Shown here: positions 14,096 to 48,855 of the stretch, one piece after another
Layout of the letters: each line of letters begins with the position of its first letter
How positions within the stretch are numbered: position 1 is the stretch's first letter
Assembly: GCF_026586625.1 (NCBI RefSeq)
Contig: NZ_JAODIW010000006.1
Span: 374,996-438,995, forward strand
Direction of reading: 5' to 3'
DNA length: 64,000 bases
Origin: Halobium salinum
GTDB taxonomy: Archaea > Halobacteriota > Halobacteria > Halobacteriales > Haloferacaceae
The notes under the pieces: model-generated
What the model was told of the DNA's origin: nothing
The model's input: only the letters and a program-made list of their open reading frames with translations
The model's database searches: none
Translations under genes and position numbers: made by a program

Positions 14096-16198
14096 TCAGA
14101 ACTTCCCGAGCAGGCGGTCGTAGAAGCCGACCCGTCCGTCGCCGTCGTCGGCCCCGCTCTTGGAGCCACCGCCCGACCCGTTCGACTCCCCCGCCAGCTT
14201 CTCGACGATGAGCTCCGGGGTCGAGCGCGCGAGGTGGTCCTTCACGGGCGAGCGGTTCACCTGCAACTCGCCGTCTTCGAGCCCCACCGCTTCGATGCCG
14301 TCGACAGCGACGTCGACGTCGGCGGCCTCCCTAATACCCCCCGCGAGGTGGGAGACGAACACCGCCGTCGCGCCCTGGCCGTCGAGTTCTTCGAGGATGC
14401 CGGCGATGATTTTCGCCGACGCACCCGGCTCCGTGATGGACTCAAGTTCGTCGACGAGTACGAGGCGGTTGCCCGCGCCCTCGGTGAGCGCCGCGAAGTC
14501 CCGGAGGGTGGCCTCGAAGGCGCCGGCGTCGAGCGTCCCCTGCGATTTGGCGTAGTAGTGGAGTTCCTCGAAGCGGCGCAGTTCGACGCGCTCGGCGGGG
14601 ACGGGGAGCCCCATCTGGGCGAGGACGACGACGAGGCCGACGAGGTCGAGGGTAGATGTCTTCCCGCCGGAGTTCACCCCGGAGAGGAGGGTGACCCCCG
14701 AGACGGAGTAGTCGACGGGGTCGACTTCGTCGAAGTCGACGTCGAGGAGGGGTGAGCGCCCGCCCTCGATGGTGAAGCCGGCGTCGTCGCCGTCGAGGAA
14801 CTCCGGGAGGACGCAGTCGAAGTCGCGGGCGAAGCGCGAAATCGCGAGTTCCACGTCGAGTTCGAGCGCGTCGCGGACGAGGTCCTCGACCGGCTCCCGG
14901 AGGTCGAGCAGGTCGGCGGCGAGTTCGCTCTTCAGGCGGGCGGCGCGGCGGTCGCGAGCGGCCACGAGTTCCGTGCGCAGACGGGAGACGGCCTCCCCGT
15001 TTCGCTCGACCGGGAACGTTGGCTCGCCGCCGAAGGTGCGCTCGGCGAGGTCGGCCTCCTCGGGCTTCAGGTCGAGCGTGTCGACGACGTGCTCGCGGGC
15101 GGTTGTGAGGGCCTCGTCGTAGTCGTCCGAGAGCTCGCGGGAGAGCAGGGAGTCGACGCGGGCACCCTGCTCAACCAGCGAGAGGAAGTCGGTGCCTTCG
15201 ATGGTCACGTCGCGCTCGCGGATGGCGTCCCGAAGGTGGTCGTTGGCGGCGGACTCGGCGGTCGAGGCGGCGGCGTCCACGTCGTCGGCGGCCGCGGCGA
15301 GACGGTCGAGTTCGTCGTCGCCGAGGACGGTGCCGTCGTCGTCGACACGGGAGAGGGCGTCCCGGAGCGCCTCGGGGTCGCAGGCCGGTTCCATCCCGGC
15401 GGCCTCGTGGACGTCGAGGGCGGCGAGCAGGCGCTCGCGGTTGCCGGCGAAGAAGGCGAGCAGGCGCTCGGGGACGACTTCGCCCGGCCGTTCGAGCGCG
15501 TCGGGGACGACCTGCACGTCCCCCTCCACGTCGAGGCCGGCGAACTCCTCGTCGAGGACGACGACGGTGGAGTACGAGCGCGCGAGTTCGGCCACGTCGC
15601 GGTTGTCCTCCACGACTTCGACGGAGAGTTCGGGAATCGCCTGCTTCGCCTCGGCGTACACCTCGGCGTCGGCGGTGGCGAGACAGCGCTCGCGGACCCG
15701 GCCGACCGAGGGGGAGTCGAGGGGTGAGACGCCGTCCAGTGCGCCGAGGACCGCAGGGTCGGGGTCGCGCTCCATCGCCCCTGCGGCGAACTCGCGGACC
15801 TCCTCGATTCTGTCCGCCGAGGCGGTCGGAAACAGTGTTTCGAGGCGCTTCGCGGCGTAGTCGGTGCGGGTGCGGGACTGGAGGAGCGCGAGCGCGTCGC
15901 GGTAGATTTCGCGCGCGCGGTCGGTGGCGAGGAAGGAGCCGTCGTCGCCGTGGCGGTCGCGGACGGCGGCGCGGGCGATGGCCGCGGCTCGGCCCTCGGT
16001 GATGCCCGGGGCGCGGGCGAGACGGGCTACGTCGCCCGTCTCGAGGGCCTCGCGGGCGTCGCCGAGCGCGGCGAGGGACTCGGCGGTCTTCTCGCCGACA
16101 CCCTTGATGTCGGTGAGTTCGCGGTTCGCGTCCGAGGATTCGTCTGTGCGCTCGGCTTCCGTCTCGGACTCGGACGCGGCTCCCCCTTCCGTACCCAT
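14096..16198 (-). CDS. MutS-like ATPase with N-terminal helix-hairpin-helix
   Basis: 700 aa. A short acidic tail leads into a helix-hairpin-helix pair (LTDIKGVGEKTAESLAALGD, then LARAPGITEGRAAAIARAA). A long alpha-helical lever-like region follows, then a MutS-type ABC ATPase with P-loop SGVNSGGKTS and Walker B LVLVDELES. The mismatch-recognition domain of true MutS is absent, as in the MutS2/MutS5-like archaeal group. Inference: it binds branched or recombination DNA and does not perform mismatch repair. The C-terminus is a Gly/Ser linker and a short GFYDRLLGKF tail. The structured repeat at 16385 lies in its upstream gap. Confidence 0.85.
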   Translation of the reverse strand: MGTEGGAASESETEAERTDESSDANRELTDIKGVGEKTAESLAALGDAREALETGDVARLARAPGITEGRAAAIARAAVRDRHGDDGSFLATDRAREIYRDALALLQSRTRTDYAAKRLETLFPTASADRIEEVREFAAGAMERDPDPAVLGALDGVSPLDSPSVGRVRERCLATADAEVYAEAKQAIPELSVEVVEDNRDVAELARSYSTVVVLDEEFAGLDVEGDVQVVPDALERPGEVVPERLLAFFAGNRERLLAALDVHEAAGMEPACDPEALRDALSRVDDDGTVLGDDELDRLAAAADDVDAAASTAESAANDHLRDAIRERDVTIEGTDFLSLVEQGARVDSLLSRELSDDYDEALTTAREHVVDTLDLKPEEADLAERTFGGEPTFPVERNGEAVSRLRTELVAARDRRAARLKSELAADLLDLREPVEDLVRDALELDVELAISRFARDFDCVLPEFLDGDDAGFTIEGGRSPLLDVDFDEVDPVDYSVSGVTLLSGVNSGGKTSTLDLVGLVVVLAQMGLPVPAERVELRRFEELHYYAKSQGTLDAGAFEATLRDFAALTEGAGNRLVLVDELESITEPGASAKIIAGILEELDGQGATAVFVSHLAGGIREAADVDVAVDGIEAVGLEDGELQVNRSPVKDHLARSTPELIVEKLAGESNGSGGGSKSGADDGDGRVGFYDRLLGKF

Positions 16199-16384
16199 GC
16201 GTGTTACGCCTCGCTATCGCGGCCTCGGGCAAAAGGTTGCGGGTCGATTCTTGTTGTTCGGTGAGTGTGACGGTGCCCGAAGACGTAGTGTTCCCGCCGG
16301 CACCGCCGATTCCGTGACCCAGCAAACCTCTTACGCTCTCGCCCTTTGCAAGTCCGCCAGGCCAGCACCGCAACCGCGCCTCGC

Positions 16385-16551
16385 CCTCCCCAGCCGACTC
16401 CTTCGCTCCCTCCGGTCGCTCAGTCGCCCCTCGCACGACTGCTCGCGCCGATGAACGGCGCTCGGCGCGCGCCGCCGCGACCTCGTGTCGCGGCCCGTCG
16501 CGCCAGGGGACCGCGGCCGACCTCCGTGTCGGCGCTCGGAGGCTGGGGAGG
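16385..16551 (+). repeat. Structured palindromic repeat, copy A
   Basis: 167 bases bounded by the inverted pair CCTCCCCAGCC (16385-16395) and GGCTGGGGAGG (16541-16551). Inside are an inner stem CCCCT/AGGGG (16427 and 16505), a hairpin GCGCCG/CGGCGC (16445-16461), a hairpin GCCGCGAC/GTCGCGGC (16474-16494) and a hairpin GCCGAC/GTCGGC with loop CTCCGT (16516-16533). The same architecture recurs at 48426. It fills most of the 534-base gap 16199-16732; the remainder holds its flanking arms and the promoter of the helicase gene. Confidence 0.75.
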
Positions 16552-16732
16552 TACGAGGGCTGTGCGGACGGTCGGGTGGGGCTCCGAAAGTGGCCGGGCG
16601 CTTTCGAAGGTCACCGTGACGACGAATCCGCGGTACCACTCACCAACCGAAAACTGCCACGAGTCACCACACAACGTATAGAGACGAATCCCTGAAATAC
16701 CCCATCCTCGTACCAAGAGAGTAGATTCAACC

Positions 16733-18799
16733 GTGTCTCAGCAGGTCGCACAGGTCGACACCCTCTTTCTCCACGAGGTGGGCGACCGCTACACCGTCGT
16801 CGCGAACAAGGGTGGCGACCGCGTCTTCCGCGGGGTCCTCGAACTCAAGGACACCTCCGCGGGCCCCCGCCCCGGCAAGTTCCGCGTCAAACGCGACTCC
16901 ACCGAGGACCCGCGAGACCCGGACCTGTTCGTCGAACTCGCCCGCCGCGCCTCCCGCATCCGCATCTCCCAGCAGACCTCTCGGCCGGGCCGCACCGAAC
17001 TCCAGGAGATGCTCGACGGCTACCAGCTCGAAGCACTGGTCGTCCGCACCTGTCGGTACTGCGCCGGTGCCGGGCGCTACTCGCCCATCACCGACGACAC
17101 CGCCATCAAGGCCGACCGCGACTACATCTGTCAGGACTGCGCGGTCCGGGAGCTGGAACGCGAACTCTCCTTCGCCGGCAACGGCGGCCTCACCGGCGCG
17201 GCACAGGAGCGCCTCGAAGAGCTGTTGCTCGAAGTGCAGGACTTAGACCGCATCACGAACCTCCTCCAGGGGAACCTCGACCCGGACCTGACGAAGTTCG
17301 ACGAGATTTCGGCGACGGTCGACGACGTGAACGCCGTCGAGACCGCCGAGTTGGACCTCCACCCGGACCTCCAAGGGCTCACGGAGGACCGTTTCGACAC
17401 CCTCCTCCCGGTCCAGTCCCTCTCGGTCAGGAACGGTCTGTTCGACGGCGACGACCAGCTCGTGGTGAGCGCCACGGCGACCGGGAAGACGCTCGTCGGC
17501 GAACTCGCCGGCGTGAACCGCGCGCTCGAAGGCAAGGGCAAACTCCTCTTTCTCGTCCCGCTCGTCGCCCTCGCGAACCAGAAACACGAGGATTTCGAGG
17601 AGCGCTACGGCGACCTCGTGGACGTGACCCTCCGCGTCGGCGCCTCGCGCATCAACGACAGCGGCCAGCGCTTCGACCCCGGCGCGGACGTCATCGTCGG
17701 CACCTACGAGGGCATCGACCACGCGCTCCGGACGGGTCGCGATTTGGGCGACGTCGGTACCGTCGTCATCGACGAGGTCCACACGCTGAAGGAGGACGAA
17801 CGGGGCCACCGCCTCGACGGGATGATATCGCGGCTCAAACACTACTGTGAACAGCGCGCGGAGTCCGGCTCCAATCCGAACTACACGGGCGCGCAGTGGG
17901 TGTACCTCTCCGCCACGGTGGGGAATCCGGAGTGGCTTGCGAAGCGTCTCCGCGCGACGCTCATCGAGTTCGAGGAGCGGCCGGTCCCCATCGAGCGCCA
18001 CCTCACCTTCGCCGACGGCCAGGAGAAGATGCGTATCGAGAACAAACTGGTCAAGCGCGCCTTCGACACGAAGTCCTCGAAGGGGTACCGCGGCCAGACC
18101 ATCATCTTCACCAACTCCCGGCGACGCTGTCACCAGATTTCCCGCAAGTTGGAGTACGACGCGGCCCCGTACCACGCCGGCCTCGACTACGGGAAGCGAA
18201 AGCAGGTCGAGCGCCGGTTCGGCAACCAGGACCTGGCCGCGGTCGTCACCACCGCCGCCCTCGCCGCTGGGGTCGACTTCCCCGCCTCGCAGGTCGTCTT
18301 CGACTCGCTCGCCATGGGTATCGAGTGGCTCTCGGTGCAGGAGTTCTCCCAGATGCTCGGCCGTGCGGGCCGCCCCGACTACCACGACAAGGGGACCGTC
18401 TACATGCTCGTCGAACCCGACTGCTCCTATCACGGCTCGATGGAGATGACCGAGGACGAGGTGGCGTTCAAACTCCTGAAGGGGGAGATGGAGGACGTCA
18501 CCTCCCACTACGACGAGGCCGCGGCCGCCGAGGAGACGCTCGCGAACGTCACCGTCGCCGGTAAGCGCGCGAAGGTGCTCAACGACCGGATGCTCGGCGA
18601 GATAGACACCCGGCGCGCGGTCGCCCGCCTGCTGGAGTGGCAGTTCATCGACGGGTTCGAGCCGACGCCGCTCGGCCGGGCCGTCACCCGTCACTTCCTC
18701 TCGCCGAAGGACGCCTTCAGGATTCTGGACGGGATTCGGACCGGGCTGGCGCCGTACGAAATCGTCGCGGAGATGGAACTGGCCGACGAGGAGATGTGA
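16733..18799 (+). CDS. Archaeal DEAD/DEAH-box helicase with zinc ribbon (DUF5814 type)
   Basis: 688 aa. The N-terminal region is a family-specific domain with a zinc ribbon, CRYC at about residue 103 and CQDC about 30 residues later. The superfamily 2 helicase core has P-loop VVSATATGKTLVGELAG, a DEVH box (VVIDEVHTL), SATVG, and motif VI within FSQMLGRAGRPDY. The C-terminal part resembles the winged-helix and ratchet region of Hel308/Ski2-type enzymes. It probably unwinds nucleic acid, but the substrate is not known. GTG at 16733 starts MSQQVAQVDTLFLHEVG; the gene has its own upstream AT-rich stretch near 16675. Confidence 0.88.
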   Translation: MSQQVAQVDTLFLHEVGDRYTVVANKGGDRVFRGVLELKDTSAGPRPGKFRVKRDSTEDPRDPDLFVELARRASRIRISQQTSRPGRTELQEMLDGYQLEALVVRTCRYCAGAGRYSPITDDTAIKADRDYICQDCAVRELERELSFAGNGGLTGAAQERLEELLLEVQDLDRITNLLQGNLDPDLTKFDEISATVDDVNAVETAELDLHPDLQGLTEDRFDTLLPVQSLSVRNGLFDGDDQLVVSATATGKTLVGELAGVNRALEGKGKLLFLVPLVALANQKHEDFEERYGDLVDVTLRVGASRINDSGQRFDPGADVIVGTYEGIDHALRTGRDLGDVGTVVIDEVHTLKEDERGHRLDGMISRLKHYCEQRAESGSNPNYTGAQWVYLSATVGNPEWLAKRLRATLIEFEERPVPIERHLTFADGQEKMRIENKLVKRAFDTKSSKGYRGQTIIFTNSRRRCHQISRKLEYDAAPYHAGLDYGKRKQVERRFGNQDLAAVVTTAALAAGVDFPASQVVFDSLAMGIEWLSVQEFSQMLGRAGRPDYHDKGTVYMLVEPDCSYHGSMEMTEDEVAFKLLKGEMEDVTSHYDEAAAAEETLANVTVAGKRAKVLNDRMLGEIDTRRAVARLLEWQFIDGFEPTPLGRAVTRHFLSPKDAFRILDGIRTGLAPYEIVAEMELADEEM

Positions 18800-22053: not shown

Positions 22054-22126
22054 GGGACCGTGGGTTAGCCTGGTATACTTCGGGCCTTGGGTGCCCGTGA
22101 CCCCGGTTCAAATCCGGGCGGTCCCA
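22054..22126 (+). tRNA. tRNA-Pro (anticodon TGG)
   Basis: 73 bases fold into a complete cloverleaf. The acceptor stem is GGGACCG/CGGTCCC with discriminator A. The anticodon stem CGGGC/GCCCG carries loop CTTGGGT with anticodon TGG. The T arm CCCGG-TTCAAAT-CCGGG is canonical. CCA is not encoded. The foreign island begins directly behind its 3' end. Confidence 0.97.
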
Positions 22127-46903: not shown

Positions 46904-47815
46904 ATGTCTCAGCGAGTACTCGTCATGGGGGACCACCACGGTGACACGGAATCACTACGGCGATTACTCGACGACGTAAACGGGGAGACATTCGACTTCG
47001 CCGTTCACGTCGGTGATTTCACCAATGCGGTGCGCCAAGGCCGACAGGCGGCCGTACGGCAACTCCGGGAGGTCGAGCCGTATCTCGAGAGGATTGCCGA
47101 CCGGACGCGGCACGACCTCGTGTGGGTGTACGGCAACCGAGACTACTTCGGCGATTTCGAGTACGATCTCCAGGTCGGAACGCGGATTCCCAAGGAAGGC
47201 TGCGTCAGGGTCGGCGGGCAGCGGTTCACGAACTCACCAGCGGCTGTCGAGTCCGACGTCATTCTCGTCACGCATATGGAGACGTGGCGGTTGCTCGACC
47301 ACTTCAATGGGCGGGCGCATCTCTGCGGTAATACCCATCTCGGCCGATACAAAGGTCGACGCCTCAACTCCGGATTCCTCCAGTACACACACCGAGAAAC
47401 GGGTGAGCAAACGTTCGGGGGCTACTTCGTCGTCGAGATTACGGAGACGCCGCCGTTCGACGTTGAGATGCGATGCATCGGCAACCTCAACCGATTCGAG
47501 TGTGATCGCCACCGGGAACGCGGCGTCCAGTTTCAGTCCGCCTTTGAGGAGTGTATGTACTGTGCCGACTCCCGGATTCTCATGCGAGAGATGACTGCTT
47601 CAGCGTTCTATGGCCTCACACACGGTGCCAACCGGGGAACCGTCACCGACAGGATGCTTGCTGACGCTGCAGTCGATTTGTGGGACGAGCCACCGGTCGA
47701 GTTCCGTGGACAATTCGAGACGTATCTCGACGGAATCGAAACCGATCGCTACGCACCGCTCGCGCGAACCGGCGACGGGAAACTCGCTCTTGCCGACGAG
47801 AGCTACGCGTATTGA
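46904..47815 (+). CDS. Calcineurin-like metallophosphoesterase with possible C-terminal zinc module
   Basis: 303 aa. The phosphoesterase part begins at once: MSQRVLVMGDHHGDTESLRR, then VHVGDFTN, VYGNRD, VTHMETWRL and LCGNTHLGRYKG. These are the metal-binding motifs of YfcE-type enzymes, with GNRD and GNTH in place of GNHD and GHTH. After residue about 195 an extra domain has FECDRH and, 20 residues later, CMYC, a C/H set that could bind zinc. The gene is AT-richer than its neighbours. ATG at 46889 is an alternative start. No partner gene is adjacent. Confidence 0.82.
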   Translation: MSQRVLVMGDHHGDTESLRRLLDDVNGETFDFAVHVGDFTNAVRQGRQAAVRQLREVEPYLERIADRTRHDLVWVYGNRDYFGDFEYDLQVGTRIPKEGCVRVGGQRFTNSPAAVESDVILVTHMETWRLLDHFNGRAHLCGNTHLGRYKGRRLNSGFLQYTHRETGEQTFGGYFVVEITETPPFDVEMRCIGNLNRFECDRHRERGVQFQSAFEECMYCADSRILMREMTASAFYGLTHGANRGTVTDRMLADAAVDLWDEPPVEFRGQFETYLDGIETDRYAPLARTGDGKLALADESYAY

Positions 47816-48229: not shown

Positions 48230-48735
48230 CTCTCGAAAGCCCCCGCTCGCTCAACTCGGGAGGCTCGTTGCGCTCCTCACCCTCGCTTCGCTCGGGTTGC
48301 GGTGCTTACGTCGTCCCGAGAAGCCTCCGGCTTCTCGTGGGCTCACGAGAGCTTTGCTCTCGTGAACGCCTGCCGTCGCTGAGCGAGCGGCCCCTTTCGG
48401 AGCCCCACCCACAGCACCGCCACACCCTCCCCAGCCGATTCACTCGGTCGCTACGCTCCTCGTTCATCCCTCGCACGGATGCGCCGCGGACGCAGCCGCG
48501 GCGGCGCGCGCCGACAGCCCCTCCATGGACTGTCGGTTCGCGCGAGGGACCGCGACTGACCTCCGTGTCAGCCACCGGAGGCTGGGGAGGTGTGAGGCCG
48601 GGCGGTACTGGGCTGGCCTGGTGGACTTGGAGAGGGCGAACGCTCTCGCGCGGTTGCTGGCGAAGCAAGCACCGCAGCGAGCGAAGCGAGTGAGGAGCAC
48701 AGCGAGTCAGAACCGGGGAGAGCGCGAGAGCTTTG
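48230..48735. repeat. Nested palindromic repeat containing copy B
   Basis: The outer arms are inverted copies of one another: the left arm around 48268-48315 (CTCACCCTCGCTTCGCTCGG, then TTGCGGTGCTTACG) pairs with the right arm around 48660-48705 (GCAAGCACCGCAGCGAGCG). Inside are further hairpins such as GAGAAGCC/GGCTTCTC. The core at 48426-48590 is listed separately. Similar arms recur near 54510-54650. Confidence 0.65.
48426..48590 (+). repeat. Structured palindromic repeat, copy B
   Basis: 165 bases bounded by CCTCCCCAGCC and GGCTGGGGAGG, as in copy A at 16385. Inner stem TCCCTCGC/GCGAGGGA (48467 and 48542), hairpins CGCCGCGG/CCGCGGCG (48482-48503) and CCGACAG/CTGTCGG (48511-48536), and hairpin CTGAC/GTCAG with loop CTCCGT (48556-48571). 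Stem sequences differ from copy A but pairing is kept. Confidence 0.75.
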
Positions 48736-48855
48736 CTGGGCCGCTGTCCCGGTATCGGCTTGTCGGTCCCCCAACTCGCCTCCAACCGAAGCGATACGCA
48801 CGAAAAGGACAGCCTTCAAGCGACCCACCACACAACTACTCACTCAACTAAACCC

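Follow-up and report, generated by a model that had tools for sequence, protein, structure and literature searches.

Two similar multi-hairpin sequences lie in intergenic DNA of Halobium salinum, at positions 16385-16551 (copy A) and 48426-48590 (copy B) of the window, the 64,000-nucleotide stretch that we analysed. The original prediction saw in them a shared set of stems whose sequences differ while their pairing holds, and ascribed this to selection on structure at the level of RNA or single-stranded DNA. The locus thus raises the question of whether it belongs to a family of structured RNAs or to a dispersed DNA repeat, and of what keeps its arms paired.

Genome searches and pairing tests

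Genome counts were obtained with a sequence profile (R1) of the half-unit described below; the best candidates were scored, and several of the counts are lower bounds. The genus of the window was represented in the genome set by the window's own genome alone, and genes were predicted with a simple codon-based caller. A fixed-register test of hairpin pairing failed on the variable linkers, and a register-free test was used instead, in which the longest helix within a copy was compared with that formed by arms drawn from different copies.

Architecture of the element

Copies A and B are 73% identical (BLAST, E = 5e-15), far beyond chance, and their folds beat 200 of 200 shuffles each (z of -3.2 and -5.5), the minimum-energy folds of the single sequences differing somewhat. 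The parts described in the original prediction read as stated: both copies have the 11-base outer stem (CCTCCCCAGCC/GGCTGGGGAGG in copy A), an inner stem (around CCCTCGCACG/CGYGCGAGGG) and three hairpins, and in the last hairpin an identical CTCCGT loop is closed by CCGAC/GTCGG in one copy and CTGAC/GTCAG in the other. The central GGCGCGCGCC is flanked by one hairpin on each side in both copies.

Additional paired arms carry the element beyond those coordinates, to approximately 16320-16606 and 48233-48740, and the window's own genome holds 35 BLAST matches to copy A at 70-100% identity. Halorubrum loci hold only one half of the window structure, a half that begins at GGCGCGYGCC and proceeds outward, and each half of the own-genome elements can be aligned with these Halorubrum units; the elements in the window thus consist of two half-units placed head to head and joined at GGCGCGCGCC, a doubling that had been missed. 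Half-units are usually paired in this manner in the own genome, and a similar head-to-head double was found in another genus of the same family (L165). From its start, the half-unit runs through GGCGCGYGCC, hairpin 1, CGTGCGAGGGA, either an arm or hairpin 2, and GGCTGGGGAGGTGTGAGG; a G-rich linker then leads into P4, a long 3' hairpin that GAAAGGGG/GGGGCTTTC closes.

The outer motifs of copy A (left, CAGCAAACC..CGCCCTTTGCAAGTCCGCCAGG; right, GGGTGGGGCTCCGAAAGTGGCC..GCTTTCG) are the arm motifs found elsewhere in the family, and copy B has paired arms at 48234-48253/48380-48399 and 48639-48651/48722-48734, its left P4 having, on the sense strand, an internal loop of GGG/GGG (Table 1). In Halorubrum, P4 ends in GGGGCTTTGG, which is followed by a variable number of tandem repeats of ~56 nt carrying ATTTATAA. 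Between zero and four of these repeats lie downstream of Halorubrum units (L145, L133, L219, L265 and others), each with a ATTTATAA box and GCGGCTGGGGCTTTGG, and together they resemble a series of promoter-like modules. Small perfect hairpin modules (such as CCGGCGGCTCTGCCGCCGG, AGAGAATCTTCGATTCTC and CGAGAGCAAAGCTCTCG) are nested at recurrent points within units at site-1, site-2 and helicase loci (L218, L216, L254, L087, L061), as if hairpins inserted into hairpins.

Table 1 Features of copies A and B in the window
Feature	Positions	Strand	Basis or remark
Copy A, whole element: two head-to-head half-units, contracted outer arms	16320-16606	.	Arm motifs; ends approximate
Copy A, left half-unit, purine-rich arm type, outward from centre	16385-16473	-	Profile match 16473-16384, E 3e-11
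Copy A, right half-unit, hairpin arm type	16464-16551	+	Profile match 16464-16557, E 1e-4
Copy A, outer stem, 5' strand CCTCCCCAGCC	16385-16395	+	Partner 16541-16551
Copy A, outer stem, 3' strand GGCTGGGGAGG	16541-16551	+	
Copy A, inner stem, 5' strand CCCTCGCACGA	16428-16438	+	Imperfect pairing with 16498-16508
Copy A, inner stem, 3' strand TCGCGCCAGGG	16498-16508	+	Most copies have CGTGCGAGGG
Copy A, hairpin GCGCCG-ATGAA-CGGCGC	16445-16461	+	Fold
Copy A, central palindrome GGCGCGCGCC, junction of half-units	16464-16473	.	
Copy A, hairpin GCCGCGACCTCGTGTCGCGGC	16474-16494	+	Fold
Copy A, last hairpin GCCGAC-CTCCGT-GTCGGC	16516-16533	+	Sequence, fold
Copy B, whole element: two head-to-head half-units, long paired arms	48233-48740	.	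Ends approximate
Copy B, left half-unit	48421-48512	-	Profile match, E 2e-11
Copy B, right half-unit	48503-48596	+	Profile match, E 4e-11
Copy B, central palindrome GGCGCGCGCC	48503-48512	.	
Copy B, last hairpin CTGAC-CTCCGT-GTCAG	48556-48571	+	C-G to T-A relative to copy A
Copy B, left half-unit P4 (3' hairpin), CGAAAG-CCC-CCGCTCGCTCA/TGAGCGAGCGG-CCC-CTTTCG on the plus strand	48234-48399	-	

Copy A lies between divergent genes (14096-16198, minus strand; 16733-18799, plus strand), the second of which reads as a helicase-like protein, and copy B between a gene ending at 47815 and one starting at ~48856 whose product reads as histidyl-tRNA-synthetase-like. Half-units occur upstream of the same helicase gene and in the same orientation in three genera (window 16385-16551; L055, 3683-3767; L084, 3766-3859), which could reflect either shared inheritance or repeated insertion.

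Pairing and conserved loops

The claim that the stems differ while their pairing is kept was upheld in larger samples. In eight own-genome doubles, 91% of cells pair compared with 84% in shuffles, 16 pairs are changed on both sides, and 0 of 500 shuffles reach this result, in which the relatedness of the copies is not fully controlled. Among 73 distinct Halorubrum P4 stems, 93% of pairs are Watson-Crick, compared with 72% when arms are shuffled. In the register-free test, the longest helices in Halorubrum were longer with a copy's own arms than with swapped arms for P4 (15.6 vs 7.8 bp), hairpin 2 (8.2 vs 4.9 bp) and hairpin 1 (6.1 vs 4.6 bp). The same held in the own genome for P4 (10.0 vs 6.1 bp; n = 7 copies, largest shuffle mean 8.8) and hairpin 1 (6.1 vs 4.4 bp), and in other genera for hairpin 1 (5.8 vs 4.0 bp), while for hairpin 2 in other genera own and swapped arms were no different.

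Certain positions within these changing helices are conserved and do not pair. In 63 of 99 Halorubrum copies, the helices that change are separated by a GA/GA 2x2 loop, and under a stricter rule GA/GA was scored in 48 of 102 copies and a paired GA/TC at the same place in one; the loop is mainly a Halorubrum trait. The GGG/GGG internal loop is likewise conserved within changing P4 helices. These conserved non-pairing loops argue that single-strand structure matters, as the upkeep of palindromes alone would be hard-pressed to explain them. Stem mismatches comprise 31 G.T and 14 A.C (p = 0.016, among related copies), an excess that is suggestive of the sense strand being the folded species.

Copy number, distribution and genomic setting

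The profile matched 52 half-units in the own genome, 74-109 in each of four Halorubrum genomes and at least 145 in one 3.0-Mb Halorubrum-type chromosome (150 candidates scored), with counts of 97 in Halorussus litoreus, 70 in Halorubrum tebenquichense and 13 in Halogranum. Half-units were present in 148 of the 292 Halobacteria genomes searched, which represent 42 of 77 genera, and the profile found none in the sampled Haloferax marinum, one Halobacterium and one Natronomonas; presence is patchy, even within families. No match was reported outside the same order, Halobacteriales, in a phylum-wide sample.

In three Halorubrum-type genomes, all of the half-units among the matches listed were chromosomal and none lay on the 977 kb of plasmids, where approximately nine per 100 matches would be expected (P ~5e-5). 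This depletion, along with the few plasmid matches, speaks against a plasmid element, and a viral origin was rejected after no match was found in 50,697 phage records. Among 84 tallied elements (a few loci being counted twice), none overlapped a predicted gene. Relative to flanking genes, half-units fell into the four orientation classes in numbers of 21, 20, 19 and 11, and a further 30 half-units of one genome were also mixed (11, 9, 7 and 3); a terminator or 3'-UTR element was rejected on this random orientation. A chromosome-organising array was also discarded, as the spacing and strand of units along the 3.0-Mb chromosome are consistent with random.

Probable exchange of hairpins at orthologous sites

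Two orthologous intergenic sites were compared among Halorubrum species, at which a unit was present in 16 of 30 and 20 of 30 loci under a strict parse and the flanking genes were 85-96% identical in most cases. The stems at these sites differ wholesale yet pair, and one locus (L240) is a mosaic of two types, with a TGC left arm and a GGA right arm, which suggests that hairpins are exchanged between copies. Decayed, nested and missing states of the unit were also seen. If hairpins are traded in this way, two selected point mutations are not required to explain how copies A and B came to differ in that pair. One swapped pair between two copies is therefore weak evidence for compensatory selection acting point by point.

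Evidence for mobility

The genome of Hrr. salsamenti (which holds L086) contains three copies of 442-462 bp that are 98.9-99.8% identical within unrelated flanks, and two other copies of 464 bp that are 99.4% identical at unrelated loci. The cleanest of the Hrr. salsamenti copies ends in TTGATCGATAGCGGGAGT and ACTCCCGCTATCGATCAA, which are exact reverse complements; similar inverted-repeat ends were found on one unit of another species and one such end on a unit of a third, both ends being expected by chance in ~0.1% of places. In some species, the element looks still able to jump. Across 134 distinct units, an inverted-repeat end lies on either side in four and on both sides in two, and in most older copies, including those of the window, terminal inverted repeats are absent or unrecognisable. 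The own-genome loci that were compared included no such near-identical copies. By eye, no clear target-site duplication was found; GATC flanks some ends but, as a palindrome, could be part of the terminal repeat. A search of plasmids and viral contigs for an autonomous partner, using the terminal ends, gave no informative match, and no transposase sharing these ends was found. PF01797 (Y1 transposase) was not found in the four copy-rich genomes searched (own genome, G000; Halorussus litoreus, G321; G015; G205), and a link to IS605 or RAYT was rejected on this result.

In another genome, a 561-bp pair (L201/L202) is 96% identical and in L202 lies between GGCTCTGTTGAAACCCT and AGGATTTCAACAGAGCC, which resemble the inverted-repeat ends of IS6-type elements; the unit may travel inside another mobile frame.

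Origin and maintenance of the element

We think it probable that the window feature is an old, probably immobile member of a family of haloarchaeal elements, so far uncharacterised, that are extragenic, non-coding and MITE/REP-like and whose hairpin array is conserved. Transposition would have spread the element, through a transposase acting in trans. Its copies persist between genes, where they would lose their ends over time and trade hairpins by gene conversion, as the block swaps and the mosaic suggest. Pairing may be kept through recognition of the folded single strand, whether ssDNA or RNA, by mobilising or host machinery, a step to which the covariation and the conserved mismatch loops point. 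Some observations count against this reading: few units have inverted-repeat ends, so the mover may have been a larger transposon that carried the unit; plasmid depletion is unusual for an active MITE; and many sites are common to several species, which is more like vertical inheritance than constant jumping.

It is rather unlikely that the half-unit is instead a structured RNA family, transcribed outward from the GGCGCG end and acting, in very many copies, either as non-coding RNA or as a regulatory element embedded in mRNA. Significant covariation in several helices is what such a family would display, with the caveat that hairpins are exchanged as blocks; the GA/GA loop within varying flanking pairs and the excess of G.T over A.C mismatches, expected if the sense strand folds, also agree, as do the TATA-like boxes that cluster 15-25 nt upstream of GGCGCG in many Halorubrum copies. 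However, TATA was found in 0 of 34 own-genome units and 0 of 21 units of other genera, a promoter could not fit at the start of units that are doubled head to head, and the random orientation to genes, the patchy presence and the occurrence of GA/GA mainly in Halorubrum all weigh against it. No Rfam family matches the element, so the remark that no named haloarchaeal RNA has such a layout holds for that database: at gathering and relaxed thresholds, the searches returned the window's tRNA and chance matches elsewhere, and a known RNA was rejected. This tRNA gene (22054-22126, plus strand) is all that Rfam matches in the window at the gathering threshold. A plain RNA family is not supported for a dispersed repeat with 0 to >145 copies per genome, variable orientation to genes, recently moved copies and block-replaced hairpins.

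REP, BIME and REPIN elements, which are associated with RAYT transposases, are high-copy extragenic palindromes that are chromosomal and form inverted doublets. The haloarchaeal element shares all of these traits, and many of its sites are common to several species, as they would be if these were vertically inherited chromosomal repeats copied by a domesticated single-copy enzyme. We regard that explanation as distinctly unlikely, since the units (290-500 bp) are far longer than REPs, recent copies have inverted-repeat ends, and no gene of the Y1/RAYT fold (PF01797) was found in four copy-rich genomes (own genome; Halorussus litoreus, with 97 copies; G015; G205). A survey of REPs names no haloarchaeon in its text (PMC12306157).

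Little credence is due to a class-wide haloarchaeal selfish RNA, in which a TATA-driven unit would produce a multi-hairpin RNA or ssDNA copy that replicates, with GA/GA and GGG/GGG as recognition sites; if true, it would be an archaeal analogue of SINEs.

Very improbable is the view that template switching during replication, together with gene conversion, is enough to keep the palindromes perfect, with no selection on structure. Template switching can yield multi-base compensatory changes (PMC8794818), and the block-swapped hairpins, the mosaics and one copy in which CCCC renders the GGG/GGG loop perfect agree with this view. Template switching should erase mismatches, yet GA/GA persists, far more often than its paired form, and GGG/GGG persists too, though possibly through sequence conservation of the GGGGCTTTGG repeat.

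Relation to known elements

The preferred reading, a MITE/REP-like element, can be set against several described systems. Like the MITEs of Haloquadratum (PMC3119063), the element is short, non-coding, dispersed and intergenic, and in Halorubrum its recent copies are bounded by inverted repeats and lack an open frame for a transposase; near-identical copies at unrelated sites in Hrr. salsamenti, and units too short for a transposase gene with no predicted gene overlapping those tested, are further MITE traits. It differs in its conserved, covarying hairpin array, in its half-unit and head-to-head forms, in its depletion on plasmids, and in that most copies have no recognisable ends and no parent transposon was found. 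Palindrome-associated transposable elements (PATEs), described from Haloquadratum and from a Halorubrum virus (PMC3119063, PMC10544981), are also haloarchaeal, transposase-free, palindrome-rich and 0.3-0.5 kb long with a variable core. PATEs are without inverted terminal repeats, have IS605-like near-terminal palindromes and share their ends with IS605-type elements (PMC3119063, PMC10544981). The present element differs in the inverted-repeat ends of its recent copies, and several copy-rich genomes have no IS200/IS605 Y1 transposase, PF01797 being absent from the four tested. Given that absence in the own genome and three other copy-rich genomes, membership of PATEs or of the REP/RAYT system is not claimed, although a genome may have lost the enzyme.

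The G-quadruplex/hairpin repeats of Methanomicrobiaceae (PMC8044849) are similarly interspersed, intergenic and G-rich in related archaea, with an orientation unrelated to genes, but they are ~43 nt long and of different sequence, and the half-unit profile reported no matches beyond Halobacteriales in the phylum-wide sample. The sense-overlapping or omega RNAs associated with IS1341/TnpB, as cited in PMC10544981, are structured non-coding RNAs tied to haloarchaeal mobile elements, but according to that citation they overlap tnpB, whereas the present units are intergenic and overlap no gene. No description of the element was found in the literature searched, which covered few subscription journals and lay outside ISfinder, and an earlier description is possible.

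About half of the sampled haloarchaeal genomes carry the element, some with more than 100 copies, and it provides a natural experiment in the spread, persistence and pairing upkeep of many-hairpin DNA in polyploid archaea. Covariation between repeat copies can come from hairpin exchange, which is a trap for RNA discovery. A transposase or an RNA product, if found, would define a new haloarchaeal mobile system. The element may also affect recombination, gene spacing and assembly. Near-identical units lie at several contig ends of one genome (L320-L324, G014), where the repeat probably breaks the draft assembly.
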